From a virus, in IMG/VR virus record IMGVR_UViG_3300022187_000086, positions 1 through 38,045 of that record: a stretch of DNA of 38,045 nucleotides; one strand, 5' to 3'. Positions 3,256 to 37,443 of the stretch are shown piece after piece. The translations under genes and the position numbers were made by a program. The notes under the pieces are model-generated. The model made no database searches. It worked only from the letters and a program-made list of their open reading frames with translations, and had not been told where the DNA came from. How positions within the stretch are numbered: position 1 is the first letter of the stretch; each line of letters opens with the position of its first letter.

Positions 3256-4241
3256 TACTCTAGTTCAATTTCCACTTGAGGTACTTGGAACTGTGGCTCA
3301 TCGAAGTGACTCATCTTTTCCAAAGCCGCAAGAAGTTCTTTAGGTGGGTTTTGCATCTTAGCAACGGCGTCCTTGAGTATCTTGAATGCCGCCATTGTGC
3401 TCTCCGTCTGCTCGGGGTTAAGAACTGCTTCGTCACCCGTAAGCTCTGCCTCCTTCTCTCCAGTTTCTTCGTCAACCAAAGCCTTCTTGTTGGTGTCGTG
3501 GTTAAACTCACCTCCAGTCACATAGATCTGATCGTTGAGCATACCGCCATTTTTCTTTATCATCTTAAGGCCGAGCTGCTGAGCAGTGTACGGGTTGTCC
3601 CCACTTGGCGCCCCATATCCAGAAAGGCTTAACCCAGTATCAACAGCCGATCCAAATGCCCCAATACCCTCTTGAATAGCTTCTGTTCCAGCAGCATAGC
3701 CCAAGCTGGCTGCTGTCTGACCCTCTCTACGAAGCTGCTCTTGAAGAGCCCTATCAACACCAATGTTCAGGTCTGAAACCTTCTGCTCTCTAGCGATGTT
3801 AGCCTGACTGTACCCTTCAGCCAAATCAGCAAGGCGCTTATCGGCTTCTGTAGCCTGCTTTGCTGCAGAAAACTCTGACTGAGCAAGCTGTTGGCTAAGG
3901 GAAGGTGCTACATTAGCGATAGTTTGACCAGCCCTTGTGGGGTCCATAACGCCAGAGGCAATAGACTGCTGAGCAAGAGCTAGGTTCTGCTCTCTGAGAT
4001 TTTTGATAGACTCAGCCGCCTGAATCTTTTGGGCCTCAGCGAGGTCTCTTGATTCTTGGGTGATGCCAAGCTGGGGACCAACCTGATAGTCAAGCTCATC
4101 GAGGCGCTTCATTGCGTCCTCGGCAATCTTTTCTCCAGCGAGCCTTTGCTTCTTGGCTCTGCTTCCTTTTACTGCGGCCTTGCCACCCTCAACAGCGAGT
4201 GTTGTGCCCGCCGCGATTAGTGCTGCTGTTATTAATGGCAT
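3255..4241 (-). CDS. Small internal-virion/ejection protein candidate (328 aa)
   Basis: The N-terminus MPLITAALIAAGTTLAVEGG is a short hydrophobic helix followed at once by a basic patch (KGSRAKKQR). Residues ~35-190 are Ala/Gln/Glu-rich helix with coiled-coil character. Around 228-240 comes an LGLKMIKKNGGMLNDQ segment, then an acidic tail. A small protein with an N-terminal membrane helix and a helical body, placed after the tail nozzle, resembles podovirus internal virion proteins of the T7 gp14 or P22 gp7 kind. The function is inferred. The ATG at 4241 lies four bases after a TATATTTG promoter element (4253-4246), so this gene probably starts its own transcript for the ejection genes 4241 to 1. 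Confidence 0.85.
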   Translation of the reverse strand: MPLITAALIAAGTTLAVEGGKAAVKGSRAKKQRLAGEKIAEDAMKRLDELDYQVGPQLGITQESRDLAEAQKIQAAESIKNLREQNLALAQQSIASGVMDPTRAGQTIANVAPSLSQQLAQSEFSAAKQATEADKRLADLAEGYSQANIAREQKVSDLNIGVDRALQEQLRREGQTAASLGYAAGTEAIQEGIGAFGSAVDTGLSLSGYGAPSGDNPYTAQQLGLKMIKKNGGMLNDQIYVTGGEFNHDTNKKALVDEETGEKEAELTGDEAVLNPEQTESTMAAFKILKDAVAKMQNPPKELLAALEKMSHFDEPQFQVPQVEIELE

Positions 4242-4245
4242 AATG

Positions 4246-4253
4246 CAAATATA
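4246..4253 (-). promoter_or_regulatory. Bacteroidota-type -7 element TATATTTG, 4 nt before ATG (ejection-gene operon)
   Basis: The leftward strand reads TATATTTG-CATT-ATG, with the ATG at 4241. TAnnTTTG is the known Bacteroidota -7 box, and transcription usually starts a few bases after its final G. The mRNA would then begin at or next to the start codon. No TTG-type -33 box is visible at the usual spacing. A hairpin at 4263-4280 lies just upstream. Confidence 0.7.
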
Positions 4254-4260
4254 GTTATTA

Positions 4261-5199
4261 TCACTTAGAGTGGTCTAAGTCAGTTGGTTCATAATTAACG
4301 TTGAGTGAGTACAGCTCGAAGTTTTCGCTTCCAAGGTTTATAACAGATTCCGCGTACTGACCCCTCAAAAAGTCTCCATTAATTTCTGGATCTGTAATTG
4401 CAAATACAGATACAATCCCTTCATTTGCAGTAACCTGAGCGCCAAGGGTGTTTAACGCGGGCAAAGTAGACTTAAATACAAGCCCTTGTTTTGTCAAGAC
4501 GCTTTCTTCCCCACCAGCAACCTCAGAGGCCTTGGGGATGTTTATTCCCGAATTAATAGTATAGTAGTCTGCTGTAGTTGACAAATTTAAAATTTGTCCA
4601 TCAGGACTGATGATGACTGGATTGTTTCCGTTTCCGAACAGAAAAGCAAGTTTTGTGTTACCCTGAACAGAAGGTGCCGCTCCATACATTCCGTCAAAAG
4701 CATATAGATCGTCAAATGCTCCTCCAATAGTCAAAAACTCTGTGTCTTTATGAATTTGACCCAAAAACTTCATGTTTACATTAGCCTTAATTCTTGTGTC
4801 TCTTGGCATGTGGCCGTACAAAATACCCCCCTTATTAGATAAAGTTCCAACGGTAATACTTCTGGGTGGCTGGTTGGGCTGTAGTGTTTCGCTAGTAGAA
4901 AAGGTATGAAGTGAGCCAGTTAGGTTTTCACTCCCTTCTACGCTAAACGTCTTGTATAGTTTGTTCTGCGACGGGTTGTCGTTAAAAGATACCGCAATGA
5001 CGGATGGATATACCGAGCCATAAAAACTGTTATTTGAGCTGTTGGTGTGGTGCTCCCAAGCTACGATATCGTCAGTAGCCTCGATCCTATTGCGCGAAGA
5101 AAAAAACTGCTTGTCAATAGAAGCATAGTTAGAGGACTCGTAATCGTACTTAGACGTCCAAATATTTTTCTTGTCGTTAAATCCTATTGTTTTTTTCAT
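4261..5199 (-). CDS. Muzzle C-terminal-module-like protein (312 aa)
   Basis: The N-terminal ~100 residues read KKNIWTSKYDYESSNYAS, then AWEHHTNSSNNSFYGSVY and NDNPSQNKLYKTFSVEGS. From memory, this order (W-T/S-x-Y-x-Y-E, a W/H-rich strand, NsFYG, N-D-x-P-S, K-x-x-K-T-x-x-x-E-G-S) is the pattern at the C-terminal end of muzzle/stabilisation proteins of crAss-like and related Bacteroidota phages, where it is part of one long chain. Here it is a separate gene starting 8 nt after the stop of the 2547-aa muzzle candidate. It probably assembles into the tail nozzle. The similarity is by eye and needs a profile search. A 7-bp hairpin covers its stop region. Confidence 0.85.
   Translation of the reverse strand: MKKTIGFNDKKNIWTSKYDYESSNYASIDKQFFSSRNRIEATDDIVAWEHHTNSSNNSFYGSVYPSVIAVSFNDNPSQNKLYKTFSVEGSENLTGSLHTFSTSETLQPNQPPRSITVGTLSNKGGILYGHMPRDTRIKANVNMKFLGQIHKDTEFLTIGGAFDDLYAFDGMYGAAPSVQGNTKLAFLFGNGNNPVIISPDGQILNLSTTADYYTINSGINIPKASEVAGGEESVLTKQGLVFKSTLPALNTLGAQVTANEGIVSVFAITDPEINGDFLRGQYAESVINLGSENFELYSLNVNYEPTDLDHSK
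4263..4280 (-). terminator. Hairpin at the 3' end of the 312-aa gene, upstream of the next promoter
   Basis: The leftward transcript can form ACTTAGA-CCAC-TCTAAGT, a 7-bp stem with a 4-nt loop overlapping the stop codon. No U-run follows, so it is a weak terminator at best. It may instead be a 3'-end stabiliser or insulator. It lies 10 nt upstream of the TATATTTG box, the same order as at 14488 and 36543. Confidence 0.4.
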
Positions 5200-5207
5200 G
5201 GATGTTT

Positions 5208-13711: not shown

Positions 13712-14464
13712 TTATACTTGTGGTGCTGCCCCGTACTGTGTCAAGAAGGTGTCTCTTAGAGAGATACCTATCATCTTGCAAATCTCGCTAACCACCTCTC
13801 CGTAGAACTCATAAGGAAGATCGAAGGCCCTGCAGTTTGATGCGTTAGGGACAGTAATCCCACCAGAGATGGCTGATGCAGCGTAAAACGGTTGTCTTCT
13901 TTGGTCAATAGCCCCCTGATCGATGTTACGGACTCTTACCTCGTACCTAGAAGCAGGATTTCTGTAATAGTTAACATGAACATCTCCTGTAGAAGAATCA
14001 GGAAAAATCTCAATTCTATCTGAAATAAGAGCTATGGGAAAATCATCAGTGGGTGCGGAAAGATTGCTGTTCATAATCCTAGACATTTTCTCCGTGTTGT
14101 AAACCAAGTCAACGCTTATGTCGGCATCGGTAAAAATGGAGATAATTCTATTGCAGTTTTGAGGCTTTAAGTAAACCTTAGAATTGCCGTGAAGCGAGGT
14201 TTCGCTGATGATACTAAGTTTATCTGTTGCAACATAGTCGGACAAGTAATTCTTGGCCCTGAGGTAAACAGAGTCTTCTCCGCCTAAATCAACCCCGCTT
14301 CTTCTGAGTGCTTTTGCCTGAGTTGCGTAATCGTAGATCTTGGTGAAGATGTTAGACTGAACTGCAGGAAGCAGAGAGTTAAACATCTCAGGAGTAACAA
14401 ACCCCTTCTGATCTTTATTCGCAATATCGCGCACTGTATTATATACTTGTATTACGCTTATCAT
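13712..14464 (-). CDS. Ring/adaptor protein (250 aa)
   Basis: A helical N-terminus (MISVIQVYNTVRDIANKDQK, PEMFNSLLPAVQSNIFTKIY) is followed by a beta-rich domain with VYLKPQNCNRIISIFTDAD and a NYYRNP motif near residue 170. In Bacteroidota short-tailed phages, proteins of this kind lie before the muzzle and form a ring between portal and nozzle. The exact role is inferred from order. Start: an upstream TTG at 14479 would add five residues, but it lies inside the TATATTTG promoter element. ATG 14464 is exactly four bases after that element, as at six other genes, so it is preferred. The stop is 3 nt before the next ATG. Confidence 0.9.
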   Translation of the reverse strand: MISVIQVYNTVRDIANKDQKGFVTPEMFNSLLPAVQSNIFTKIYDYATQAKALRRSGVDLGGEDSVYLRAKNYLSDYVATDKLSIISETSLHGNSKVYLKPQNCNRIISIFTDADISVDLVYNTEKMSRIMNSNLSAPTDDFPIALISDRIEIFPDSSTGDVHVNYYRNPASRYEVRVRNIDQGAIDQRRQPFYAASAISGGITVPNASNCRAFDLPYEFYGEVVSEICKMIGISLRDTFLTQYGAAPQV

Positions 14465-14468
14465 ATGG

Positions 14469-14476
14469 CAAATATA
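14469..14476 (-). promoter_or_regulatory. -7 element TATATTTG, 4 nt before ATG (ring/muzzle operon)
   Basis: The leftward strand reads TATATTTG-CCAT-ATG. It directly follows the terminator at 14488-14505, so an operon boundary is well marked here. It would drive the two ring genes, the muzzle gene and perhaps the 312-aa gene. No -33 TTG is visible; the T-rich terminator tail fills that position. Confidence 0.75.
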
Positions 14477-14487
14477 CAAAAAGAAAA

Positions 14488-14505
14488 GAGGCCCCGAAGG
14501 GCCTC
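14488..14505 (-). terminator. Intrinsic terminator, GAGGCCC(UUCG)GGGCCUC plus U-rich tail
   Basis: A perfect 7-bp GC-rich stem is closed by a C(UUCG)G tetraloop on the leftward transcript and followed by TTTTCTTTTT. It lies three bases beyond the stop of the 277-aa gene and immediately before the promoter at 14469-14476. Confidence 0.9.
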
Positions 14506-14508
14506 TAT

Positions 14509-15353: not shown

Positions 15354-16586
15354 TTAAAGGTTGTATAGGTCGTATAGGTCTTTTGCGAGCTTCTTTGAAG
15401 CAACGCTTCCGATGTCTCTAGAGATAACTCCAAAACGTCCAAGGCTACCCTTAAACGAATTGATTTTGTCCGCACCAGCAGAGGCAATCTGAACAATATT
15501 TAAAACTCCAGCAGTTTCTTCGTTTTCGGCTACAACAGACAAGACGCTCTTATTGACATCTGAAACCTTGGCTTTAATAGATGCAATGAGCTCACCAGTG
15601 TAGTTGTAGGCGGATATGTTGTTTGACTTGTCTCTTCTAATAACAATTACTGTTGGTAGCTCTTCGTCGTAATCAACAGAAACTGGTGTTGAAGCTGGGA
15701 GTCCAACACGCCCCTCGTGACGCACGCCAAAAATGTTTTTAGAAACGGGCTGTCTCCCCACATATTCTGCAGTAGCATTAAACCCCACCGTCTCTCCGCT
15801 AGCGCTTCCATACATGCTGCCAGTGCTGCCATCACTGCCAGAAATTCCAGAAGTAAAAACAACATAGATTGTATAGTCATCCTTTATCGTAAGAGCGGAC
15901 GATAGAACAGCGTAGCTGTCAATGTTAAACGCGACGGTATTTACGTTAAAGCCATTCGTTGAGCCTCCAGTGTATTCTGAAATGGTTCCAACAGAAGATG
16001 CAACGTCAACATCATACGTTGCTCCACCAGTTCCAGCATTAGCCCAAGAAGCTAAAACTCCAAGTGAATAAGTAGCATCTCTACAATCGAGATCAACGAT
16101 TGGTTTGTTAGCTGTTGCGCCGAAGTCAATGTCATTGACAACATTGGCTGCTGATGGGGTAAACCCGTTGTCTGTAACAATGCTTGTATTGCCAGTAACT
16201 CTGTTTATTGGATTCTCTTTAACAAAAGCTTTTATCTCGTTTTGAGCTTCGGCATAAGAGGAAGATGCCGTTGCATCAAACATAATATATGGATTACCTT
16301 TTTCTAGCCCGCTAAAAGTTGAAATCCTTTCTATTAGGCTTACCTCCTTCCCCTCGTCACAAGCCACTGTTACAAAAGACTTTTGAAAGGACTCACCAGT
16401 AGTGAGATTGCTTTCTTCGTATATAGATACGTTGTTGAAGTAGATGTTTACCTCCCCCAAAGAAGCAGTCATATGCGATATGCTGCTTACTGGCACAGAG
16501 ATAACCTCTATGTCTGTTCCATCATCTGAGACACTGGCTCCAGAAGCCGTGATGTCCTTCAATTTAAATATGATGAATTTATTCAT
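15354..16586 (-). CDS. Capsid-associated protein with C-terminal LamG/concanavalin-like domain (410 aa)
   Basis: Residues 1-~90 are beta-rich (MNKFIIFKLKDITASGASVS; FVTVACDEGKEVSLIERIST). From ~170 a LamG/ConA-like jelly roll is suggested by the LDCRDATYSLGVLASW opening, SALTIKDDYTIYVVFTSGI, PTVIVIRRDKSNNISAYNYTGE and the closing SLGRFGVISRDIG...KKLAKDLYDLYNL. Such domains bind glycans. Two genes after the MCP, it is a good candidate for a head decoration or head fibre with lectin-like activity. The domain call is by pattern, not search. It has its own promoter: TACCTTTG ends four bases before ATG 16586. Confidence 0.88.
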   Translation of the reverse strand: MNKFIIFKLKDITASGASVSDDGTDIEVISVPVSSISHMTASLGEVNIYFNNVSIYEESNLTTGESFQKSFVTVACDEGKEVSLIERISTFSGLEKGNPYIMFDATASSSYAEAQNEIKAFVKENPINRVTGNTSIVTDNGFTPSAANVVNDIDFGATANKPIVDLDCRDATYSLGVLASWANAGTGGATYDVDVASSVGTISEYTGGSTNGFNVNTVAFNIDSYAVLSSALTIKDDYTIYVVFTSGISGSDGSTGSMYGSASGETVGFNATAEYVGRQPVSKNIFGVRHEGRVGLPASTPVSVDYDEELPTVIVIRRDKSNNISAYNYTGELIASIKAKVSDVNKSVLSVVAENEETAGVLNIVQIASAGADKINSFKGSLGRFGVISRDIGSVASKKLAKDLYDLYNL

Positions 16587-16590
16587 AGTT

Positions 16591-16598
16591 CAAAGGTA
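16591..16598 (-). promoter_or_regulatory. -7 element TACCTTTG, 4 nt before ATG
   Basis: The leftward strand reads TACCTTTG-AACT-ATG (ATG 16586). It has the same geometry as the TATATTTG sites but different internal bases, so the constraint looks like TAnnTTTG-N4-ATG rather than one copied sequence. A hairpin at 16607-16629 lies just upstream. Confidence 0.65.
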
Positions 16599-16606: not shown

Positions 16607-16629
16607 GAGGGGAGCCATTCTCCCCCCTC
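16607..16629 (-). terminator. GC-rich hairpin between the 110-aa and 410-aa genes
   Basis: The leftward transcript can pair GAGGGG and AG with CT and CCCCTC around a 5-nt loop, with a two-G bulge. The following sequence (TCCTTTACTACC) is only weakly U-rich. It separates two genes and precedes a promoter element, so it is probably a partial terminator. Confidence 0.45.
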
Positions 16630-16645: not shown

Positions 16646-16978
16646 TCACGAGATAGCTACGCCACCTCCCGCTGAAATCAAAACCCACTTAGAGCTGTTC
16701 CAAACAAGAGATACGCAGTCGTCATTCGCCTCCAAATCAATGTCGCTAAATGAAGCGTCCAAGGGACTTGTAACGGCAATGTTTGCGTCGTTGCCAGCGG
16801 AGATGTTAAGCAAAGAAATAAGCTGACCCGGAATGGTTCCGTCAGGAAGCGTAAAGGCCACATCTGTAGAGCCGGGATTAAGCTTTACAAAGCTAGTATC
16901 CACAGGAATAGTTCCAGATGTAGACGTTTTAGCGTCCGCTTCAAGAATCAGGGGAAACACGTGTTTTGTAGTTGCCAT
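16646..16978 (-). CDS. Small beta-rich decoration-like protein (110 aa)
   Basis: The sequence runs KHVFPLILEADAKTSTSG, VAFTLPDGTIPGQLISLLNI, then DCVSLVWNSSKWVLISAGGG. The TLPDG...GQ...W-x-S-x-K-W pattern is common in short beta-helical or beta-sandwich phage proteins that trimerise on capsids or fibres. It is the first gene after the MCP and is separated from it by a strong hairpin. A capsid decoration role is likely but unproven. TTTG lies four bases before ATG 16978 (ATCTTTTG-AATT-ATG), a degenerate form of the promoter seen elsewhere; the TA pair is out of register. Confidence 0.85.
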   Translation of the reverse strand: MATTKHVFPLILEADAKTSTSGTIPVDTSFVKLNPGSTDVAFTLPDGTIPGQLISLLNISAGNDANIAVTSPLDASFSDIDLEANDDCVSLVWNSSKWVLISAGGGVAIS

Positions 16979-20395: not shown

Positions 20396-20823
20396 TACGT
20401 GTGGTAGATTGCCATGTACTCCAAAGTCATTGCAGTAGCAACGCTTGGGGTAATGGTGATATCAGTATCTGCGGCTGCGCTATAAGGGATAAACATCCAG
20501 TCTCCTGCATACAATCTGCCGAGCTCCTGAGCATTAGCATCTCCAATGCCGTCACCCAACTTAATGGTGAAGTACTCCGAAGTGGTAGTGCTTGGGTTTC
20601 TCAAGTAGATCTTGTGACCGGGGTCACTGGGAGATCCGAAAGTTGTTTCGTCAAAGAGAACCACCTCAGAAGCTGCGGTATAGATTCGTCTATTGACACC
20701 AGTGGTCTGGTCCAAGCCAGTCACACTGTTACCCTTAGTAAGCGTGGATGTTGAGGCAAGAGACAAGGAGTCCCCCGTCAAGTCCCCGCTGGAAAGCGTA
20801 ATGGATGCTGTTGTAGTAGGCAT
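20395..20823 (-). CDS. Small beta-rich structural protein, first gene of the head operon (142 aa)
   Basis: The sequence contains PTTTASITLSSGDLTGDSLS, VNRRIYTAASEVVLFDETTF, HKIYLRNPSTTTSEYFTIKL, GRLYAGDWMFIPYSAAADTD and a final TLEYMAIYHT. It shares the Y-L-R-N, G-D-W/F and E-Y-x-x-(Y/F) landmarks with the 135-aa neighbour, so the two are probably paralogues. Its start is preceded by an A/C-rich, Shine-Dalgarno-free 27-nt leader and a TATATTTG promoter element. It therefore heads the transcript that also carries scaffold and MCP. Role inferred as a capsid-associated protein. Confidence 0.85.
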   Translation of the reverse strand: MPTTTASITLSSGDLTGDSLSLASTSTLTKGNSVTGLDQTTGVNRRIYTAASEVVLFDETTFGSPSDPGHKIYLRNPSTTTSEYFTIKLGDGIGDANAQELGRLYAGDWMFIPYSAAADTDITITPSVATAMTLEYMAIYHT

Positions 20824-20850: not shown

Positions 20851-20858
20851 CAAATATA
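20851..20858 (-). promoter_or_regulatory. -7 element TATATTTG with 27-nt leader (head operon: decoration, scaffold, MCP)
   Basis: The leftward strand reads TATATTTG, then GCA-A/C-rich sequence with no G-rich Shine-Dalgarno, then ATG 20823. Unlike the N4-ATG sites, this leaves a short leader. This fits known Bacteroidota practice, where A-rich unstructured leaders replace Shine-Dalgarno sites at strongly expressed genes. Confidence 0.7.
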
Positions 20859-21655: not shown

Positions 21656-21833
21656 GACTTACGATTTTGAACTTAGCTTTAGCGACGACCTTATCATGAG
21701 GCTTGTAGTCTCCCTTCATCAGAAAGTACCTGCCCCCTTCTTGCATCCAGTGGTATCCTTTAGGCGGATCAATCTCCATAGACTTCTGAGAAATCTTAAG
21801 CTTACCGCCCTTGTTGTACTTCACAGTATTCAT
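21648..21833 (-). CDS. Small basic protein, DPPKGYHWM family (61 aa)
   Basis: The sequence is MNTVKYNKGGKLKISQKS, DPPKGYHWMQEGGRYFLMKG, DYKPHDKVVAKAKFKIVSHA. The PPKGYHWM-x-x-x-G-R-Y-x-L-M and KAKFKIVS elements look like a conserved small phage family, but I know of no function. Start choice: a GTG at 21839 would add two residues. ATG 21833 forms a TGATG overlap with the upstream stop, the coupling used throughout this operon, so it is preferred. Confidence 0.8.
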   Translation of the reverse strand: MNTVKYNKGGKLKISQKSMEIDPPKGYHWMQEGGRYFLMKGDYKPHDKVVAKAKFKIVSHA

Positions 21834-22123
21834 CACCACTTCACCTTGTTGGCCCAGTAAGCTGCGCTCATCTTACCCTTGGCAATGTTCTTTGCATGAC
21901 GAGCCTTGAATGAAGCTCGCTTCTTTTTCATTTTATCGCCCTCACCAGCTTTTGGCTTCCCAGCAGTCTTAGCCCCCTGCTCACCAAATCTTATGGTCTT
22001 AATCTTATCGCCGACTTTAGCCACAACAATGTGAGACTTTTTGGGGTGGCTGGGTGTTCTTTTAGGTTTGTTAAACCCAGACACACCAGCTCTTTCCAAT
22101 CGAGGATCTTTTTTAGACTTCAT
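21833..22123 (-). CDS. Small basic conserved phage protein (96 aa)
   Basis: The sequence contains HPKKSHIVVAKVGDKIKTIR, FGEQGAKTAGKPKAGEGDKM, KKKRASFKARHAKNIAKGKM and SAAYWANKVKW at the end. The combination IRFGxQG...RxSFKARHxKNIxKGKMSAAYWAxxxxW recurs in many unrelated phage genomes (recall, not search). It is a compact, positively charged domain of unknown function. First gene of the basic cluster, with its own TATATTTG box exactly four bases before the ATG. Confidence 0.87.
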   Translation of the reverse strand: MKSKKDPRLERAGVSGFNKPKRTPSHPKKSHIVVAKVGDKIKTIRFGEQGAKTAGKPKAGEGDKMKKKRASFKARHAKNIAKGKMSAAYWANKVKW

Positions 22124-22127
22124 AATG

Positions 22128-22135
22128 CAAATATA
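22128..22135 (-). promoter_or_regulatory. -7 element TATATTTG, 4 nt before ATG (basic-protein operon)
   Basis: The leftward strand reads TATATTTG-CATT-ATG (ATG 22123). The intervening four bases are identical to those at 4246. It is placed in the 13-nt gap after the 84-aa gene. No -33 box is seen. Confidence 0.7.
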
Positions 22136-22136: not shown

Positions 22137-22391
22137 TTACTCTGGTTTTACCCCGTACTCTCCAGCCTGAAGGTGATAAGTTGTTTGTCCAGAGCCAGTC
22201 AGGTATGTGAAACACATAGTCTCACCTTCTGGGATTTCTAGCGTTTCGTAGGTGGCCACGTATGTCCCGTCCTCTTGTAAGCACTCCTCTAAAGTCTGCT
22301 CATTAAAAGACCATCCCATATTGGGGCAGTTAGCATCTGTCCACGATTGGAGCAAGTCGTCTTCCGATTGTATCGTTACTGAGTACTTCAT
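22137..22391 (-). CDS. Small acidic protein of unknown function (84 aa)
   Basis: Sequence features: MKYSVTIQSEDDLLQSWTDA, ANCPNMGWSFNEQTLEECLQ, then TYETLEIPEGETMCFTYLTG. Acidic, three Cys residues, probably beta-rich. I do not recognise it. Its ATG overlaps the stop of the RCC1-like gene (TAATG), so it is the last member of the TerL-portal-fibre transcript. That proximity suggests a small fibre-associated protein or chaperone; this is only a positional guess. Confidence 0.75.
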   Translation of the reverse strand: MKYSVTIQSEDDLLQSWTDANCPNMGWSFNEQTLEECLQEDGTYVATYETLEIPEGETMCFTYLTGSGQTTYHLQAGEYGVKPE

Positions 22392-23665
22392 TAGCTTACA
22401 CTTAAGAGAAGAACCGTATTGGATGTGCCAGCTGTTCTAACAGACAGCGAGTTCACCGTTGACCCAGAAGGGAAGTTGTAAAGAGTGTTTGCGTTAACGC
22501 CGCTCAAGCTTGAGGTAGGTGAGTTCCAGCTGCCGCTACTTGGAGACCCCCATAGGCTTATCACTCCGTTTTTCTTAAAGCACCGAGCCGAAGCTTGTTG
22601 TGACCCATATCCGTGATTTATAGTGTCGTCGAAAACGTCCCAGTCAGTATCTGTTCCATACTGACTTAACGTGTAATATGAACTCGACGCCCCTTGAAAT
22701 CCAAACGTGTTTCCACAAGTGTATAGTCCAACAGATCCAGCGGTTCCCTTTCTGAAAGCAGAGTCGTAGTTCCCAGAGATGACCTGCTGCCAATCTGTAT
22801 CCGTGCCTATCTGAACGACGTATGTCTGGCTACTTCCATTAGAGATAGAAGCTTCTTCGTTGGCGGGAAACATTGAGTCTGCTCTACCAAACATGAACAA
22901 TTCGCCACTAGAGTTTATTACCATACAACCATCGCTAGCTCCAGCAATCTTAAACGAACCAGCACTGTAGTTTAGATTCTCACTCCAGTCTGTAGAAGCG
23001 GCGCTTTTAACTCTAGTAAAAGATAGGGTATTGCCAGATGTGGTTCCCTGTCCTGTCCCTCCGTAGTTATTCCTTCCTGTTGCGTACAGATAGGTATCCG
23101 TTGAACCACCCTTCAAGGCATAAGAAGTATATCTGGTGCCAGCAATGTCCTTCCAGTCTGTGTCGCTCCCCACCTGAGTCCAGCTAGTTTGAGTCGTTTG
23201 GTTTCCTAATCCGAGCTGTCCGTAAAAGTTATACCCCACACACCAGAGGGTTCCGTCTGTCTTAAGGGCCATTGCCCAACTAGAAAAGGTTCCGTTACCG
23301 CAAGCGATAACCTTAGCCACGTTTGTCAAAACGATTTCGAAGTCAGTGTGAACCGTATTGCCCCACGATTGGCTTGAACCAGCAGACTTGTGATATAGAT
23401 TGTTACTAGAGTCGATCCCAAAAATGTGAGAGTCGTTTTGAATTATTTTGGTGAATTCAATCGTTGACATCTCATAGGCGTAAGTTGGGATATCGCTGAA
23501 GAACGTGCTCCAGTCAAATGGAAAGCTAGCAAGCGAAAGTCCTCCGTAAGTGATTGTCCCAGTTGACGGATAGGTCAGCACGTGAGCCTCGCCACCACCG
23601 CCTCCAGTACCGAGACCAGAGATGTTGTCAATGTTTGCTGTATCAACTCCGATAATCTTACTCAT
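22391..23665 (-). CDS. RCC1-type seven-bladed-propeller-like protein (424 aa)
   Basis: Repeated blades of about 50 residues are visible. Examples are WAMALKTDGTLWCVGYNFYG with QLGLGNQT; SYALKGGSTDTYLYATGRNN; CMVINSSGELFMFGRADSMF; and FRKGTAGSVGLYTCGNTFGF. Each ends in a W-x-x-V/I strand such as TDWKDIAG or TDWQQVIS. This is the RCC1 pattern (x-x-A-L-x-x-D-G-x-L-(W/Y)-x-x-G-x-N-x-x-G-Q-L-G). It directly follows the tail-fibre gene with ATGA overlap, so it is probably a virion surface or receptor-binding component. The N-terminal ~45 residues contain a Gly-rich linker (GLGTGGGGGEAH) typical of fibre tips joined to a shaft. Enzymatic GEF activity is not implied. Confidence 0.9.
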   Translation of the reverse strand: MSKIIGVDTANIDNISGLGTGGGGGEAHVLTYPSTGTITYGGLSLASFPFDWSTFFSDIPTYAYEMSTIEFTKIIQNDSHIFGIDSSNNLYHKSAGSSQSWGNTVHTDFEIVLTNVAKVIACGNGTFSSWAMALKTDGTLWCVGYNFYGQLGLGNQTTQTSWTQVGSDTDWKDIAGTRYTSYALKGGSTDTYLYATGRNNYGGTGQGTTSGNTLSFTRVKSAASTDWSENLNYSAGSFKIAGASDGCMVINSSGELFMFGRADSMFPANEEASISNGSSQTYVVQIGTDTDWQQVISGNYDSAFRKGTAGSVGLYTCGNTFGFQGASSSYYTLSQYGTDTDWDVFDDTINHGYGSQQASARCFKKNGVISLWGSPSSGSWNSPTSSLSGVNANTLYNFPSGSTVNSLSVRTAGTSNTVLLLSVS

Positions 23666-26247
23666 ATCTCAAGCCAAGTGTTGTCAGGATTAAAATAAAT
23701 CTGCGCATTGGTGGCATTGATTACGTATCCAACGACACGAACTATATCTCCAGTAGCTGAAGGAGCGGTTGTTGTGACCTCGCCCCCTGTCGTGGACAGA
23801 TATAGAACGTCGCCTTTAGAAGCCCCACTAAAGCCAGTGTTAGACCCAAGCTTTACAGCACCCTCAAGGACTACCTCGTTGGCGCTTCCCGCATCAGTGG
23901 CTACAACCAAAAGTCCAGCGCCTGTACTCGCAGCGTCAGCATCGGCAAGGGTCCACGAAGAAGCCCCAAGTATGTAAAGAGCGCCAGCAGTAATTGCTCC
24001 CGAAGTAAAGAACCCTCTACCCAGTCTAGCCCCTTCTGAGAAGTATCCGTTTGCTGGAGAGACTGGGAATCTGGCGTTTACATATATCTGCTCAGCTCTT
24101 ACTTCACCAGACACCGTAAGTGTCGTTCCATCAAAAGTTAGGTTTGCTTCACCATCCAACTCTGTGGTTGTCGCACCAATAGTAGTGAGTCTATTTTCTG
24201 CCTGATTGTTAAGAGCTGTGATTGTTCCGCCACCTCCTCCTGACGCACTGAGAGTGTCACCCGTCATAGTAAGGTTAGTTCCAATCGTAGCGTAAGTAAG
24301 CTTGCCCTCAGAGTCGTCCCAGAAGACAAGCTTGTCAGCCCCTGCATCTTGAGAACCCAGAATTTGCCCTGCGTTCATTCGCAGGACGTCGGTCGCGTTG
24401 GCGTTAATTGAAACGTCCGTACTGTTGTCAGTCCCAACGGGATCGAAATCAACGCCTGATGCTGGAAGGGCAACCCAACCAACAACACCGCTTCCGTTAG
24501 TCTGAAGAACGTAGTTGGCTGTTCCGTCAGCGGCTGGCAACGTGTATGGGTTTACACCGTCGTCAACTTTAATTTGGCCGCTAACATGCAGAGCTGTATC
24601 AGGTGAAGTTTCTCCAATACCAACATTACCACTCGCACGGAGTGTCATAGAAGGCGTGATACCAGTAGCGCCTGTAAAGAACTGCAAAGCGCCTTTGTTA
24701 TCAGCACCATCGCGTCGAGTATAAATCCTTGCTACGTAGTTGGCGCCAGAAACGGTATTGTCGTTAAGGTTGAAAACAATCCCACCGCCAAAGCCGTCAG
24801 TCATGTTACCAGACGACGTAGTAGTAAGAAGCATTGCAGACGCAATACCTGTAGTGCCATTGAAACTCCCACCAGTGATGGCAGTAGCGCGATCAAAACC
24901 AAGTACTGGGAAGTTGGCACTGGCGGCCTGAAGCTGCCCCTGAATATCCACAATACCAGTACCGTCAGGTGCAAGCGTGATGTCTCCGCTAGAGACAGAC
25001 ACAATGCTCTGACCGTTTACGTCAAGGTCACCTCCAAGCTGAGGAGTGGTGTCGTCAACTAGGTCTCCAGAAGGAATCGTAGGCGTGTTCGCAATATCAG
25101 TGTTGTAGTCAACTTGATTTAAAAGTAGCGTCTGACCACTAATCCTAATGTAGTCGTAAATGCCAGCAAGCGTGACGTCAGTACTGTTGTCTGTACCAAC
25201 GGGATCGAAGTCTACGCCTGAAGTAGGAATCGTAGGTGTGTTGGATACATCCGTAGTGTAATCTACTTGACCCAACGTGATTTCCTGACCAGCAAGCGTG
25301 AGGTAGTTGTAAGCGCCAGCGAGTGTAACGTCTGTACTGTTGTCGGTGCCAACGGGATCAAAGTCAACGCCTGACACTGGGATAGAAGGTGTACCGCTTA
25401 GGTCAGAGTATGCTCCGCTAGTAGCTACATCAGCCAGAGTGGTAGGTGTAGCAACACCACTTGCATTACCAATCCATGCCTGACCGTCGGGGATGTTGGG
25501 GACGTCGTTAGCCCTTCCAGCACCCATGATGATGCCAGAGATCTTGTTGCCACTTACGTTTACCTTGATGATAACGCCGAGGTTCTGAATGGCGTTTGTA
25601 CCAGTAGGCTTGGTTGTTGTCCAGCCCCCAGAAGCTCCAAGGTATACCGTCTGGCCCTCCGTGTAGATAGAGGCGTTAGGAACGTCTACGTTGTTGATGA
25701 ACCCCAGCGCAATACCCTTACCCTCGCCTTCGTCAGCAAGATCTTCGTCAAGTACGAAGTGGGCTGGGTAGTTAGTAGCCGCATCCGCCGCAATAACCTC
25801 AGCAAGGTTGCCTACGCTGCCAGTGACATGAACAGGCGTTCCCTTATACAGTGGTCCTCCAGATACGTTCTTTACGTTTTCTGCGATGGTCTGAGGGTAA
25901 GCAAAGGAAACGGTTCCAGCACCGTCAGTCATAAGAACTTGCCTGTCAGTTCCGTCGGCAGCTGGGAGTGTGTAAGCACTCCACTTCGTGTCGTAATCTG
26001 TAGCGCTGTTCTTTTGGATAAACTGATTCTCAGAACCACCAGCAATCAGCCCCTCCCCGTCTGCACCAGCTGGGCCCGTCTCGCCTTGTATGCCCTGAGG
26101 TCCAGTCTCACCTGTGTCACCCTTAGGCCCTTTTTCAGTAACTGATACAGACGTTGCAGCGGCGCTAACAACGTCTACCGATGTAGCTGCGGATACTTCT
26201 ACATCAATATTTGGGGCTGAACCTACCGTTATTGAAATATCGCTCAT
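23662..26247 (-). CDS. Collagen-like tail fibre (861 aa)
   Basis: Domain order: a short beta N-terminus (MSDISITVGSAPNIDVEVSA) repeated in SVDVVSAAATSVSV; nine Gly-X-Y triplets at 40-66 (GPKGDTGETGPQGIQG and on); a beta domain with SGGPLYKGTPVHVTGSVGN and GQTVYLGASGGWTTTKPTGT (~115-240); at least three repeats starting GVDFDPVGTDNSTDV (~300-400 and again ~610); a middle shaft; and a C-terminal domain (GYFSEGARLGRGFFTSGAIT to FNPDNTWLEI) echoing the GDVLYLSTTGGEVTTTAPSA strand. Collagen triplets and modular repeats are standard for trimeric phage fibres contacting the host. The start overlaps the upstream stop (TAATG). Confidence 0.92.
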   Translation of the reverse strand: MSDISITVGSAPNIDVEVSAATSVDVVSAAATSVSVTEKGPKGDTGETGPQGIQGETGPAGADGEGLIAGGSENQFIQKNSATDYDTKWSAYTLPAADGTDRQVLMTDGAGTVSFAYPQTIAENVKNVSGGPLYKGTPVHVTGSVGNLAEVIAADAATNYPAHFVLDEDLADEGEGKGIALGFINNVDVPNASIYTEGQTVYLGASGGWTTTKPTGTNAIQNLGVIIKVNVSGNKISGIIMGAGRANDVPNIPDGQAWIGNASGVATPTTLADVATSGAYSDLSGTPSIPVSGVDFDPVGTDNSTDVTLAGAYNYLTLAGQEITLGQVDYTTDVSNTPTIPTSGVDFDPVGTDNSTDVTLAGIYDYIRISGQTLLLNQVDYNTDIANTPTIPSGDLVDDTTPQLGGDLDVNGQSIVSVSSGDITLAPDGTGIVDIQGQLQAASANFPVLGFDRATAITGGSFNGTTGIASAMLLTTTSSGNMTDGFGGGIVFNLNDNTVSGANYVARIYTRRDGADNKGALQFFTGATGITPSMTLRASGNVGIGETSPDTALHVSGQIKVDDGVNPYTLPAADGTANYVLQTNGSGVVGWVALPASGVDFDPVGTDNSTDVSINANATDVLRMNAGQILGSQDAGADKLVFWDDSEGKLTYATIGTNLTMTGDTLSASGGGGGTITALNNQAENRLTTIGATTTELDGEANLTFDGTTLTVSGEVRAEQIYVNARFPVSPANGYFSEGARLGRGFFTSGAITAGALYILGASSWTLADADAASTGAGLLVVATDAGSANEVVLEGAVKLGSNTGFSGASKGDVLYLSTTGGEVTTTAPSATGDIVRVVGYVINATNAQIYFNPDNTWLEI
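25060..25390. repeat. Tandem coding repeats within the tail fibre
   Basis: Two consecutive ~130-bp units encode GVDFDPVGTDNSTDVTLAG, x-Y-x-Y-(L/I), GQ-x-x-x-L-x-QVDY-x-TD and NTPTIP. A third, shorter copy of the first block (GVDFDPVGTDNSTDV) is encoded near 24405-24460. Repeat expansion of this sort changes shaft length and recombines easily. Confidence 0.8.
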
Positions 26248-29181: not shown

Positions 29182-29189
29182 CAAATATA
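29182..29189 (-). promoter_or_regulatory. -7 element TATATTTG upstream of the portal
   Basis: A TATATTTG box in the 33-nt gap between TerL and portal. Its TTTG ends 6 nt before the minicistron ATG and 20 nt before the portal ATG. A small AGCC(CAUC)GGCU hairpin plus AU-rich tail at 29197-29208, on the TerL 3' end, lies just upstream. Confidence 0.65.
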
Positions 29190-31497: not shown

Positions 31498-31499
31498 AA

Positions 31500-31720: not shown

Positions 31721-31726
31721 ATACAG

Positions 31727-31954
31727 TTACCTGCTTCGTCTTAGCCTAGGCCTATTGTTTGCCCTGTTTTTAGACTCTGGTTGAGGAGAGGTTTTGTCTG
31801 ATGTTCCAACATGCGCCTCATCAAGGCCGTCTCCATTTCCGTACGTACCCTTACGTCTGTTGATCTTATTGAGCAGAGCACGATACCTTTTAGCCTTGCC
31901 GCCCTTGCCGTACTTTTCGTACTCTTTTTTATAGTCGCGCTTTGTGACTTTCAT
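31727..31954 (-). CDS. Small basic protein with a GTYGNGDGLDEAHV motif (75 aa)
   Basis: KVTKRDYKKEYEKYGKGGKA, KRYRALLNKINRRKGTYGNG, then DGLDEAHVGTSDKTSPQPES and KNRANNRPRLRRSR. The GDG-x-D-x-x-H-V...S-K-N-R-x-x-N arrangement resembles a widespread small phage protein near terminases whose core looks like a reduced HNH domain (D-G-x-x-x-x-H, N, N-R). Residues for a full nuclease site are not all present, so activity is uncertain. TATATTTG lies exactly four bases before the ATG. It heads the packaging transcript (75 aa, tRNA-Arg, 43 aa, 59 aa, TerL). Confidence 0.87.
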   Translation of the reverse strand: MKVTKRDYKKEYEKYGKGGKAKRYRALLNKINRRKGTYGNGDGLDEAHVGTSDKTSPQPESKNRANNRPRLRRSR

Positions 31955-31958
31955 GACG

Positions 31959-31966
31959 CAAATATA
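31959..31966 (-). promoter_or_regulatory. -7 element TATATTTG, 4 nt before ATG (packaging operon)
   Basis: The leftward strand reads TATATTTG-CGTC-ATG (ATG 31954). It lies between the tRNA-like element (ends 31974) and the 75-aa gene. No -33 box at 19-21 nt; that position is occupied by the tRNA-like acceptor stem. Confidence 0.7.
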
Positions 31967-31973
31967 ATTAAAG

Positions 31974-32050
31974 TCCGCAAGGTGGGACTTGAACCCACAT
32001 GTAACCAGTTACCCTTTCTACAAGGTATAAGCTTGAGGGGATACTCGCGG
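31974..32050 (-). ncRNA. tRNA-like element with intact T arm and acceptor stem but no normal D/anticodon arms
   Basis: Seen directly: acceptor CCGCGAG/CTTGCGG (seven pairs, one G-U), T arm GTGGG-TTCAAGT-CCCAC (perfect, canonical loop), discriminator A, total 77 nt, all as in a tRNA. The 45 nt between acceptor and T arm do not fold normally. There is no D stem with a GG loop. The best anticodon-like stems are TACCT/GGGTA with an 8-nt loop (TGTAGAAA) or ACCTT/AGGGT with 6 nt. GTAA-CTGG-TTAC can form a further small hairpin. It is either a decayed tRNA, a highly unusual one, or a tRNA mimic. Its 5' base directly abuts the HNH stop codon. Confidence 0.55.
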
Positions 32051-32407
32051 TTATTTGTTTCTTCTTTCGTGAGTTTTGATTCTGTGGCAGTTAGCACATC
32101 TAACTCTGCACTTGCGGATTTCTTTCTTGATGGCGTCTATACCATATGCGTTGTTCACCATATCTGCTATGTTGCCGGACTTAGCCCCTCTGACATGATC
32201 AAATTCAAGTATTATTGGATTTGACTCCCCGCAATCAAAGCAACCAAGAATACCCTTAACCCTAGAAACAAAAGACCTGTTCCACGCACGCTGAGACTTA
32301 TTATGCTCTAGAGCTTTCTTTTTGTAATACTCTTTGTTTTCGGCATAGTGTTTTTTCTGATATGCCTTGTTGTAAGCGCGACGTGAATCAGGGTCTTTGT
32401 ATGGCAT
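32051..32407 (-). CDS. HNH endonuclease (118 aa)
   Basis: A basic helical N-terminus (PDSRRAYNKAYQKKHYAENK) is followed by the HNH/zinc core: CFDCG (Cys56, Cys59), ILEFDHVRG (catalytic His71 after Asp70), KCRVRCANCHRIKTHER (Cys104, Cys107, His108). The order CxxC...DH...CxxCH is that of small phage HNH nucleases with a structural zinc. These may be free-standing homing enzymes or help packaging by nicking. The ATG overlaps an upstream stop (TGATG). The stop touches the tRNA-like element, a pairing worth noting because homing nucleases often sit at tRNA genes. Confidence 0.92.
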   Translation of the reverse strand: MPYKDPDSRRAYNKAYQKKHYAENKEYYKKKALEHNKSQRAWNRSFVSRVKGILGCFDCGESNPIILEFDHVRGAKSGNIADMVNNAYGIDAIKKEIRKCRVRCANCHRIKTHERRNK

Positions 32408-33362: not shown

Positions 33363-33363
33363 G

Positions 33364-33600: not shown

Positions 33601-33601
33601 T

Positions 33602-33916
33602 TTAATTAAGTGATATGCCCAGCCCTCTGATCAAATCGTCAAGATCTGGACCATCGTCATCAGGCGGGCAGTATGAGTCTGTCATAAAGTCCTTAACAAT
33701 CTCTAGCTCATCTTCACTTTGTATATTATAGTGAAAGAAAGCCTTCATATTGCTGGTTTCTTCATCAAAAGGTTCCAACAAACCTACGACAAAAGAAGAA
33801 ATAACTTTATCTTCTAGTCCATATTTCTCTATTAGCTCACCAAGAGCAAAGGCCAACTCTTGCATTTCGAACCAGAATCCCTCTTCTTCCATATCACTGT
33901 AACGATCCTTATCCAT
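33602..33916 (-). CDS. Acidic protein of unknown function (104 aa)
   Basis: Strongly acidic: DKDRYSDMEEEGFWFEMQEL, GLEDKVISSFVVGLLEPFDE, then YCPPDDDGPDLDDLIRGLGI. Helical, not recognised. Its ATG (33916) is separated by a single base from the ATG of the rightward winged-helix gene (33918), so each gene's promoter must lie inside the other's coding sequence or transcription enters from upstream. Acidic small phage proteins near a regulator are sometimes anti-repressor or inhibitor proteins; nothing here proves that. Confidence 0.75.
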   Translation of the reverse strand: MDKDRYSDMEEEGFWFEMQELAFALGELIEKYGLEDKVISSFVVGLLEPFDEETSNMKAFFHYNIQSEDELEIVKDFMTDSYCPPDDDGPDLDDLIRGLGISLN

Positions 33917-33917
33917 A

Positions 33918-34869: not shown

Positions 34870-34896
34870 AATATTTAAGGGCGCTCAACCCAAAGC

Positions 34897-35403
34897 TTAA
34901 GCGTCGGAATCACTTAGTGATAAAGTTTCTGATATTACAGCAGATCCAATATATCCATTAACTTCTACGGTTGCTCTAATAGTAAACGAGTTTAATCCCG
35001 AGCCACTGTGTGCAAAAGCCACCCCAGAAGCCGATCCAGCATCTATGTCGTCCATAGGAGACACATCGTCCATAAGGAGGTAAAAAAGATTAATACCCCC
35101 CGGGTTCTGCACCGAATCCATGGTTAAAGAGCTAGATAAAAGCTCTATCTGTCCAGATCCGGTTGTCACATTTTCAACGGTAATACTTGTGACGACATAA
35201 TCAGATGCGGTTCCGGTATATTTGACCGCATTTGTATTTATACGAACATCAAAAAAAGAACTTGAGGCTAGAGCGGTAGCATCAATACCGCTTGCTGGTG
35301 TGTCTCCGTCTTGAATAAAAAGCGCCAAGCCCAATGAGCTAACTGATTGGGGGCCGTCAAAAGAGCCACCTGATGTTGTAATGGAGTTGCCTAGTCCTAA
35401 CAT
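34897..35403 (-). CDS. Beta-rich structural protein (168 aa)
   Basis: From ATG 35403: MLGLGNSITTSGGSFDGP, SVSSLGLALFIQDGDTPASG, then FFDVRINTNAVKYTGTASDY and FTIRATVEVNGYIGSAVISE. Beta-sandwich composition, Ser/Thr/Gly-rich, no signal peptide; resembles small virion proteins of this phage but not any family I can name. An ATG at 35448 would extend it by 15 residues, but those are an out-of-frame reading of the 43-aa gene. ATG 35403 forms TGATG with that gene's stop. Confidence 0.82.
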   Translation of the reverse strand: MLGLGNSITTSGGSFDGPQSVSSLGLALFIQDGDTPASGIDATALASSSFFDVRINTNAVKYTGTASDYVVTSITVENVTTGSGQIELLSSSLTMDSVQNPGGINLFYLLMDDVSPMDDIDAGSASGVAFAHSGSGLNSFTIRATVEVNGYIGSAVISETLSLSDSDA

Positions 35404-35534
35404 CACCCACTGCAGCTTTCGCAATCCTCTGGGTTGTCGAGGTTGCATGTTATCTCTCCAGACTCAATTTTTTCTTCTTGTTTTTTCAGTTTAGACTGAT
35501 CCAAGAAGCTGATGTCTTCAAATTCTTCTTCCAT
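35403..35534 (-). CDS. Small acidic Cys-containing protein (43 aa)
   Basis: From ATG 35534: MEEEFEDISFLDQSKLKKQE, EKIESGEITCNLDNPEDCES, CSG. Acidic coiled-coil-like start and a C-x7-C-x2-C tail that could bind metal. Two bases after the M15 peptidase stop and coupled by TGATG to the next gene, which supports it despite its size. Function unknown. Confidence 0.78.
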   Translation of the reverse strand: MEEEFEDISFLDQSKLKKQEEKIESGEITCNLDNPEDCESCSG

Positions 35535-35536
35535 AA

Positions 35537-36016
35537 TTACAGTTGTTTTCCAAACATTACTTCGTACTCCACTTGTCCTTTATCATCGCGAACAGCTTTG
35601 AGGCACCGACCACGATTAACCCCACCGTAAACGAAAGAGACGTGAACCCAATCAGGATTGTCTTGATCACCAAACTCCCAAATGAGCTGATCAAACTCCA
35701 GATTTTCTCTAATGTAGTTGAAGATTTGAGAGTTTGTACAATTTCCGTATACGTCTGCGTCCAGATCAAGTGCTCTGCCTTCCACATGCTGACTGCGTCG
35801 CGAACCACCGATAGCACTGTTGAGATCAGCTGAGCGATAGCCTGACGACACGTATATAGGACACCCGAAAGCGTCGCGCAAAGGCTGGAAAACGTTGATT
35901 GCAACTTGCCTAAGATTTTCTGTAACCCATTCATCTGGTGTGTTGTCTATATTTAAACGCTTAGCCGTCGTGCTTTTCGTTACCTCGGCGAGAGATAGAT
36001 TTTTTGATAGCTTCAT
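35537..36016 (-). CDS. M15-family peptidoglycan peptidase (endolysin component), 159 aa
   Basis: Peptidase M15_3-type fold. The zinc-site motif SQHVEGRALDLD (75-86) supplies His77 and Asp84, Glu114 in QLIWEFGD is the likely catalytic base, and WVHVSF (123-128) gives His125. An upstream YVSSGYRSADLNSAIGGS (55-72) is the usual substrate-cleft segment. Such enzymes cut the peptide side chains of peptidoglycan (D-Ala-D-Ala or L-Ala-D-Glu type). It acts at lysis or from the virion. No signal peptide and no holin-like neighbour with clear membrane segments is seen in this window. Full-length for the family. Confidence 0.93.
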   Translation of the reverse strand: MKLSKNLSLAEVTKSTTAKRLNIDNTPDEWVTENLRQVAINVFQPLRDAFGCPIYVSSGYRSADLNSAIGGSRRSQHVEGRALDLDADVYGNCTNSQIFNYIRENLEFDQLIWEFGDQDNPDWVHVSFVYGGVNRGRCLKAVRDDKGQVEYEVMFGKQL

Positions 36017-36092
36017 TATTAAGTCTTCGTTTCTCGTTCTCTATACGAGGATCTTTTCTTTTCTTCTTTGCGTTGAAGTAGTACTTCCTCAC
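35961..36092 (-). CDS. Possible small basic protein, GTG start (43 aa)
   Basis: GTG 36092 immediately follows the TAA of the 141-aa gene and reads MRKYYFNAKKKRKDPRIENE, then KRRLNNEAIKKSISRRGNEK, HDG. It would fill the 76-nt gap before the M15 gene but overlaps that gene's first 56 nt in another frame. The K/R richness may merely reflect purine-rich DNA. Kept as a low-confidence candidate. Confidence 0.3.
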   Translation of the reverse strand: MRKYYFNAKKKRKDPRIENEKRRLNNEAIKKSISRRGNEKHDG

Positions 36093-36518
36093 TTACGCAG
36101 CAACAAAGATCTCAGTGACGATAGTAGACGAAGATGCTACAGCGCTTATCTCTGCAATATCAGCCAAGGTTATACTCTGTGAACCAGTTGCATTGGCGTC
36201 CATCTTGGAGTTATTCAAGATAAAAGAGTCTCCAGCTTCAAGCTTTACAGCATATTCTTCGGAAGAACCAAGGATACGCAGTGTAAGCGTATTTGAATCA
36301 CCCATATGAGAGATGCGCAAGTACTTTACTGAGCTAGCCACAAACGTGCCGCTAGCTACAGCAGAGCTAATCTTTACGAGGTCAGCCTCTGATGTCGTAA
36401 CAGAAACAATTCTGTTGTCTACCTGCGTCACAGACTCTATGTCATGAACGCGCGAACTGCTTCTATCTACACCCTCAAGTGTGAGCTGCTCGCTTATAGT
36501 TACTTTAAGTGTTGCCAT
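36093..36518 (-). CDS. Small beta-rich structural protein, paralogue-like (141 aa)
   Basis: ATLKVTISEQLTLEGVDRSS, HDIESVTQVDNRIVSVTTSE, then VKYLRISHMGDSNTLTLRIL, EEYAVKLEAGDSFILNNSKM and a final SSSTIVTEIFVAA. It shares strand order and the Y-L-R, G-D-x-F-x-(L/I) landmarks with the 135- and 142-aa head genes at 19988-20823, so it is probably a distant paralogue used elsewhere on the virion. Its promoter (TATCTTTG) is four bases before ATG 36518, after the terminator of the transglycosylase gene. Confidence 0.83.
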   Translation of the reverse strand: MATLKVTISEQLTLEGVDRSSSRVHDIESVTQVDNRIVSVTTSEADLVKISSAVASGTFVASSVKYLRISHMGDSNTLTLRILGSSEEYAVKLEAGDSFILNNSKMDANATGSQSITLADIAEISAVASSSTIVTEIFVAA

Positions 36519-36522
36519 GGGT

Positions 36523-36530
36523 CAAAGATA
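36523..36530 (-). promoter_or_regulatory. -7 element TATCTTTG, 4 nt before ATG
   Basis: The leftward strand reads TATCTTTG-ACCC-ATG (ATG 36518). It sits directly after the terminator at 36543-36559; the terminator U-run ends 7 bases upstream. No -33 box is visible. Confidence 0.65.
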
Positions 36531-36531
36531 A

Positions 36532-37431
36532 TCAATCAAAAAGTATCTTGTTGAGATACCCTCTAGTCTCCTCTGGTATGTAGTCAAACCACAACCTAGG
36601 ATCACCGTAGATATCCACCCCATCGGCTTTAGCTCTTTCCAAAGCAGTCTTAATTCTGCCCTCCCCAGCGTTGTATGAAGCATAAATACGTGCAAGCCTG
36701 TTGACTTCAGGTATCTTTTGTGGTGGTTCTTTAATCCAGCTAAGCTCAGACAAAGCATTGATCTTAGCATCGCGCATCTGACGGCTGTGCTCTGGGTTGA
36801 AGGGGTCTAGACCAGAAGAAATCAGTCCTCTATCCTCCAAGTCTTTCTGTGTAGCTGGCATAATCTGAAACAGTCCCCTTGCCCCTACTGGCGATACGGC
36901 CATAGGGTTGTTGGAGCTCTCAGCCATAATCTGCCTCTGAAGCCTATCAGCACGAGACATGTTGTATTTGCTTGTGTCAGACGGGGCAGCAGAAGCCTCC
37001 TCAGCAGCCAGCCTAGCCAAGCGAGCATCAAGAGCTGCATAACCAGTGCTCTCTTGCTCTTTCTTTTTCTTAGGGTCTCCAATCTTGGTGTCAAGTACAC
37101 CCCCATTAGCATAACCCAAAGCAGTCAACCCCGCGCCTAGCTTAGCACGCTCTGCTTTCTGCTCCAACCAGTTGAGATCCTCAGCCTCTGTCTTGTACTG
37201 AGTAATACCGTCAGCAAGCTTAGACGTATCCAACCCGTACTCATTTACAAGAACACCCAAGATGTCTTTGAGCTGATCTCTGTTCTGCATGATGTTGCCG
37301 CGATCTACGATAGACTGCATCTGATCCAACATCTGTGGCGGGATAGAACCAGCTTTATCGCTGTCAACAGAAGCAAGCAACACATCTCTGTAACTGCTCT
37401 GCTTCTTCTTAGGATCTCCTGTTACTCTCAT
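36532..37431 (-). CDS. Lytic transglycosylase (SLT domain) with N-terminal extension (299 aa)
   Basis: Residues ~160-299 form an SLT/lysozyme-like domain: QIMAESSNNPMAVSPVGARG with catalytic Glu171, GLFQIMPAT (186-194), and YASYNAGEGRI (250-260). All three are canonical family motifs. It cleaves the glycan strands of peptidoglycan. Residues 1-~150 are a helical, charged extension containing two GDPKKK boxes (5-10 and 118-123) around a coiled coil. This suggests a virion-associated protein that opens the wall during entry rather than a simple endolysin; either is possible. The ATG lies four bases after TATATTTG. Confidence 0.93.
   Translation of the reverse strand: MRVTGDPKKKQSSYRDVLLASVDSDKAGSIPPQMLDQMQSIVDRGNIMQNRDQLKDILGVLVNEYGLDTSKLADGITQYKTEAEDLNWLEQKAERAKLGAGLTALGYANGGVLDTKIGDPKKKKEQESTGYAALDARLARLAAEEASAAPSDTSKYNMSRADRLQRQIMAESSNNPMAVSPVGARGLFQIMPATQKDLEDRGLISSGLDPFNPEHSRQMRDAKINALSELSWIKEPPQKIPEVNRLARIYASYNAGEGRIKTALERAKADGVDIYGDPRLWFDYIPEETRGYLNKILFD
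36543..36559 (-). terminator. Terminator hairpin overlapping the end of the transglycosylase gene
   Basis: The leftward transcript forms GTATCT-CAACA-AGATAC followed by TTTTTGATTG. The stem lies inside the last codons (Y-L-N-K-I-L) and the U-run just before the stop. It precedes the next promoter, so gene-end, terminator and start are compacted into ~40 bp. Confidence 0.7.
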
Positions 37432-37435
37432 GTAG

Positions 37436-37443
37436 CAAATATA
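37436..37443 (-). promoter_or_regulatory. -7 element TATATTTG, 4 nt before ATG (transglycosylase)
   Basis: The leftward strand reads TATATTTG-CTAC-ATG (ATG 37431), immediately after the stop of the 43-aa gene (37444). A TTG lies 23 nt upstream, slightly farther than the usual 19-21. Confidence 0.7.

Follow-up and report, generated by a model that had tools for sequence, protein, structure and literature searches.

Background

What does it mean when seven genes in one stretch of viral DNA are each preceded by the octamer TAnnTTTG, at exactly four bases from the ATG start codon? The stretch in question is a 38-kb fragment of a marine phage from IMG/VR (record IMGVR_UViG_3300022187_000086; all 38,045 nucleotides are referred to here as the window). 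An earlier note on this DNA had interpreted the octamer as the -7 promoter element of Bacteroidota and the seven genes as part of a genome-wide programme of leaderless late mRNAs, possibly depending on a phage factor or a modified polymerase. We evaluate this proposal by counting the arrangement in the window and in about 80 related viral loci extended to near-complete contigs (the relatives), and by comparison with host genomes and other phages.

Affiliation and gene content

Nearly all genes of the window lie on the minus strand, and they include genes for the terminase, the portal, virion structural proteins and an endolysin-like protein; judged by its gene content the window is a late block. 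The large terminase (TerL) is 50.4% identical to that of Caudoviricetes sp. MW202828 and 41.5% identical to those of the Flavobacterium elemo phages, and the portal protein has 25–31% identity to those of the elemo phages and MW202828 and of Cellulophaga and Tenacibaculum phages, with matches in Maribacter phages as well. These two proteins place the window with the 60–80-kb podoviruses of Flavobacteriia, in a group near Elemovirus, Pervagoviridae and Pachyviridae. A Bacteroidetes MAG has a contig with a TerL 69% identical to that of the window, and this homologous contig, together with the Flavobacteriia-infecting relatives, suggests that the host of the phage is probably a member of the Bacteroidota. 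Two further genes deserve mention. The protein encoded at 22391–23665 (minus strand) is similar to "regulator of chromosome condensation" (RCC1-like) families and adjoins a tail-fibre-like gene (23662–26247). A 2547-aa protein was considered as a crAss-type virion polymerase and rejected, as it has no DxDxD motif and is instead a structural protein (phrog_14478).

The seven sites and their spacing

The window contains seven copies of TAnnTTTG-N4-ATG, all of them on the minus (coding) strand and each opening an open reading frame (Table 1), exactly where the earlier note had placed these sites. An eighth, degenerate site that it had listed at 16978 (ATCTTTTG-N4-ATG) lacks the invariant TA and falls outside the consensus. 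The gap is four bases at all seven sites, which constitute seven of the nine motif-bearing starts in the window; the other two are leadered, with gaps of 20 and 27.

Table 1. Predicted leaderless promoter–start sites of the window, adjacent hairpins and leadered counterparts
Feature	Position	Strand	ATG	Remark
TATATTTG-CATT-ATG, predicted leaderless promoter and start of gene 3255–4241 (328 aa)	4239..4253	-	4241	family with leaderless homologues in relatives
TATATTTG-CCAT-ATG, start of virion structural gene 13712–14464 (250 aa)	14462..14476	-	14464	motif and orthologues
Putative intrinsic terminator immediately 5' of promoter at 14476	14487..14506	-		hairpins also visible before orthologues in relatives
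TACCTTTG-AACT-ATG, start of gene 15354–16586 (410 aa)	16584..16598	-	16586	motif and orthologues
Terminator-like hairpin immediately 5' of promoter at 16598	16610..16627	-		
TATATTTG-CATT-ATG, start of gene 21833–22123 (96 aa, phrog_7595)	22121..22135	-	22123	motif and orthologues
TATATTTG-CGTC-ATG, start of gene 31727–31954 (75 aa, phrog_6437)	31952..31966	-	31954	between tRNA-like element and tRNA-Arg
TATCTTTG-ACCC-ATG, start of gene 36093–36518 (141 aa)	36516..36530	-	36518	motif and orthologues
TATATTTG-CTAC-ATG, start of endolysin-like gene 36532–37431 (299 aa)	37429..37443	-	37431	one leaderless homologue in relatives
Leadered counterpart, TATATTTG 20 nt before ATG of portal gene	29182..29189	-	29161	
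Leadered counterpart, TATATTTG 27 nt before ATG	20851..20858	-	20823	

The simplest alternative is that an AT-rich motif happens to precede ATG codons by chance or because of base composition. In its favour, the octamer is a short motif, of which the window contains 25 copies. The comparison with shuffled sequence that the earlier note had called for gave an expectation of 0.50 such sites (standard deviation 0.69), and none of 100 shuffles reached the seven observed. In 81 related viral sequences, the distribution of gaps between TAnnTTTG and gene-opening ATGs is bimodal, with a sharp spike at 4/5, a broad leadered class at 14–30 nt, and almost nothing at gaps 6–13; no spike was seen on the opposite strand, with altered motifs or with the reversed motif. 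The invariance of the spacing thus holds within the window, where the gap is always 4, and fails in the relatives, where it is mainly 4 and also 5. For the window and relatives together, ATGs opening reading frames of at least 50 codons number 100 at gap 4, as opposed to 0–8 at gaps 0–3 and 6–13, although these pooled counts are not fully independent since some relatives are fragments of overlapping lineages. The ATGs of reading frames shorter than 50 codons have no such spike (13 at gap 4, no more than at other gaps), which indicates that the arrangement marks true starts; an equal rate before non-start ATGs, which the earlier note had named as grounds for abandoning its reading, is not what we find. 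GTG starts carrying the octamer likewise have it almost only at gap 4. Once near-identical upstream sequences are removed, 101 leaderless starts remain, distributed over 31 protein families; each of the seven window genes belongs to a family with leaderless homologues. With these controls we regard the chance explanation as refuted and its probability as negligible.

Promoter signature and predicted transcription start

The seven window sites match the -7 element of Bacteroidota sigma-ABfr promoters exactly, and the profile over 88 non-redundant sites from the window and relatives is TATATTTGC, so that the identification of the octamer holds. In 66 of 69 N4 starts a C or T stands immediately before the ATG. 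The corresponding figures are 52 of 121 (43%) for leadered starts (p=2e-14 relative to the N4 starts) and 78 of 239 (33%) for starts without the motif (p=1e-22), where A dominates. Bacterial transcription usually initiates at an A (+1) preceded by a pyrimidine (-1), and by this signature the mRNA is predicted to begin with the A of the AUG. The spacing points the same way: the distance from the -7 element to the transcription start is 4 or 5 nt in Flavobacterium johnsoniae (PMC6847099), a rule that we apply here to a phage whose host is inferred. The gap spike at 4/5 and the pyrimidine before the ATG together describe a promoter spacing that leaves no 5' UTR, and the suggestion that these mRNAs begin at or beside the AUG is supported to that extent.

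Farther upstream, the leaderless sites have a signal at A-18 T-17 T-16, which resembles the AT-rich pattern of F. johnsoniae promoters, and the region from -39 to -29 has no enrichment of TTG, i.e., no -33 TTTG/TTG element. This element is barely visible in F. johnsoniae promoters too (PMC6847099) and is consequently not a defining feature in that species. The window sites and sigma-ABfr promoters agree in the box, the AT-rich signal near -18, the lack of a clear -33 element and a start, predicted for the former, 4–5 nt downstream (PMC6847099). Among TAnnTTTG boxes, of which three variants exist in F. psychrophilum (PMC9723704), TATATTTG is preferred, accounting for 55 of the 88 leaderless sites, and the leadered late promoters carry this same box.

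Search for a phage-encoded transcription factor

The earlier note had taken the missing -33 TTG to suggest that a phage factor or a modified polymerase is at work. We find no support for this step, since both the absent -33 element and the upstream profile resemble F. johnsoniae promoters. The broader possibility is that late promoters, with TATATTTG but no -33 element, depend for recognition on a sigma factor, an activator or a modified polymerase supplied by the phage. It would account for the preference for this box over other TAnnTTTG and for its nearly one-stranded use: in the seven near-complete relatives (G001–G007), TATATTTG precedes gene starts 41 times on the main promoter strand vs 5 times on the other. 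A replication-region helix-turn-helix (HTH) protein of the relative G005 also weakly resembles phrog_836, "late transcriptional activator" (1.7e-7). Against it, the box is the perfect host -7 consensus and a clear -33 is missing from host promoters too, and Pfam searches of the window and relatives, which extend the search outside the window as the earlier note had proposed, produced no phage sigma factor or RNA polymerase: there was no match to Sigma70_r2, just one sub-threshold region-4 HTH for Sigma70_r4 (in G002), and no match to the T7-type RNA_pol profile, the last being weak evidence as this profile matched nothing in the controls either. On balance we consider a phage factor unlikely. 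As separate observations, the genes on the other strand of G001–G007 probably use a different promoter variant, judging by the same strand counts, and the HTH protein of G005 with the weak phrog_836 match (L098:3935–4357, minus strand), encoded in a block opposite the late genes, is a candidate regulator of the TATATTTG late promoters.

Conservation and genomic context

The box and the exact N4 gap are kept in orthologues down to 30–60% protein identity while the flanks diverge. Gap 4 is found for the gene at 31954 in 27 of 33 relatives (some with a GTG start), for the gene at 22123 in 11 of 19, and for the gene at 36518 in 13 of 29, with gap 5 in two more. The structural gene at 14464 has TATATTTG-N4-ATG in 8 of 11 relatives and a gap of 16–17 in the other three, and the gene at 16586 has gap 5 in one relative and gaps of 16–20 in four. 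Conversely, the gap is 16–30 for the portal gene in 69 of 80 relatives (5 in ten) and for the gene at 20823 in 23 of 29. Comparison of these upstream regions suggests that the leaderless or leadered state can switch between orthologues. In either state the box retains the character of a promoter, and this speaks against a role in ribosome binding.

Such a role would make TAnnTTTG a translational element upstream of the AUG in a leadered mRNA rather than a promoter. Ribosome signals typically keep a constant distance from the start codon, and initiation in Bacteroidota does use upstream bases other than the Shine-Dalgarno sequence (PMC6847099). However, orthologous genes carry the same box at 16–27 nt, the box directly follows terminators and matches the host -7 box, and C or T precedes the AUG, unlike the motif-less starts with their predominant A. 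A translational element is accordingly highly improbable.

The surroundings of the sites are compact. The median distance from the preceding stop codon is 19.5 nt for leaderless and 41 nt for leadered starts, a difference that arises in part from having no leader. At 4253, 22135, 36530 and 37443 no more than about ten bases separate the upstream stop from the start of the box; the boxes at 14476 and 16598 come after terminator-like hairpins, and that at 31966 after a tRNA-like element. Terminators lie directly before 8 of the 88 leaderless motifs in the window and relatives, compared to 0.6% of random places. The tRNA-like element itself (31972–32055, minus strand; acceptor CCGCGAG/CTTGCGG, T-arm GTGGG-TTCAAGT-CCCAC) is reported by neither ARAGORN nor Rfam, and its slot is occupied by an intact tRNA-Ile(tat) in several relatives.

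Occurrence in hosts and other phages

Leaderless mRNAs amount to 5.5% in F. psychrophilum (PMC9723704), 5' UTRs under 10 nt to 3.7% in B. thetaiotaomicron (PMC7366714), and leaders of 10 nt or less to 13% in F. johnsoniae (PMC6847099). Most host promoters are thus leadered, in contrast to seven leaderless among nine motif-bearing starts in the window. When gap-4 sites are counted in excess of the reversed motif, the median for 40 genomes of the class is about 8 per Mb, whereas the phage relatives stand at 72 per Mb; in the 38 kb of the window there are 7 sites vs 1 reversed match. One Bacteroidota genome (G056, loci L127–L140) reaches an excess of 97 per Mb, well above the class median, with 356 TAnnTTTG-N4-ATG vs 75 reversed, and is possibly unusually rich in leaderless genes; given this genome, the host lineage itself may be leaderless-rich.

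Among other phages, the half-genomes of crAss-like crAss001 and phi14:2 have no gap-4 site and one gap-5 site each, and no gap-4 site occurs in the portions of phi38:1 and phi46:3 that were examined. A Flavobacterium elemo phage has two such sites (TACCTTTGCTATATG and TATCTTTGCAATATG), as does Maribacter phage Panino. The trait is concentrated in this phage clade and, among the sequences examined, is strongest in the window. A literature search, with most subscription papers and bioRxiv outside its reach, returned nothing relevant on TATATTTG or leaderless late phage transcripts in Bacteroidota.

A single leaderless phage mRNA is that of lambda cI, which starts at the AUG and is initiated by host RNA polymerase. 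The same is predicted here, although lambda-type cases are isolated regulatory genes whereas this clade has several structural and lysis units per phage, with the arrangement conserved. Lambda is cited as the discovery case of leaderless initiation in a survey of TA-led leaderless genes of Actinobacteria and Deinococcus-Thermus, whose mRNAs lack a leader owing to a -10-type box about 10–12 bp before the start codon and which differ from the window phage in box and sigma factor (PMC3160421). The survey found such genes in just 1 of 37 Bacteroidetes/Chlorobi genomes, although its Pribnow-based method may miss them (PMC3160421).

Discussion

We are highly confident that the sites are ordinary sigma-ABfr -7 promoters with the start codon placed exactly on the transcription start. 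The sequences support the motif, its spacing, the initiator signature, the conservation and the compactness, and from these we infer transcription at the sites, its exact start base and its late timing. The label "late" agrees with the gene content, as the sites precede structural and lysis genes. A "genome-wide programme" is an overstatement: near-complete relatives have about 2–6 gap-4 sites per sequence plus several leadered late promoters, and most genes are in operons without a promoter of their own.

The proposed mechanism is as follows. Host RNA polymerase would contact TAnnTTTG (-12 to -5), skip four bases and initiate with ATP at the pyrimidine-A step, this A being the A of the AUG, so that each late transcription unit would open with a cistron that has no 5' leader. 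Because Bacteroidota ribosomes do not depend on the Shine-Dalgarno sequence, such an mRNA should be translatable from the AUG at its 5' end. What is gained is most likely compactness, in that promoter and translation start would fit within about 15 bp and a new late transcript could begin right behind an upstream stop codon, terminator or tRNA; the sites most likely function, accordingly, as minimal modules that combine promoter and start codon where intergenic gaps are short. Some genes may also receive read-through from upstream promoters, and leaderless and internal translation could coexist.

A more elaborate possibility is a dedicated late-phase switch to leaderless translation, in which leaderless late mRNAs would outcompete the leadered mRNAs of the host, initiation being shifted by an altered balance of initiation factors, by 70S initiation or by a phage factor. 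We consider such a switch very unlikely; leaderless translation as such, and any advantage late in infection, are predictions from the arrangement of the sites.

Leaderless mRNAs are considered rare in Bacteroidota, whose ribosomes choose start codons without the Shine-Dalgarno sequence. With its dozens of natural promoter–AUG fusions, some of which have leadered orthologues, this phage clade offers matched pairs for comparing leadered with leaderless initiation, and TAnnTTTG-N3-Y-ATG provides a sequence rule for start-codon correction and for finding transcription units in Bacteroidota phages. The same layout in many related phages points to a real and under-described way to pack promoters into tiny intergenic gaps.
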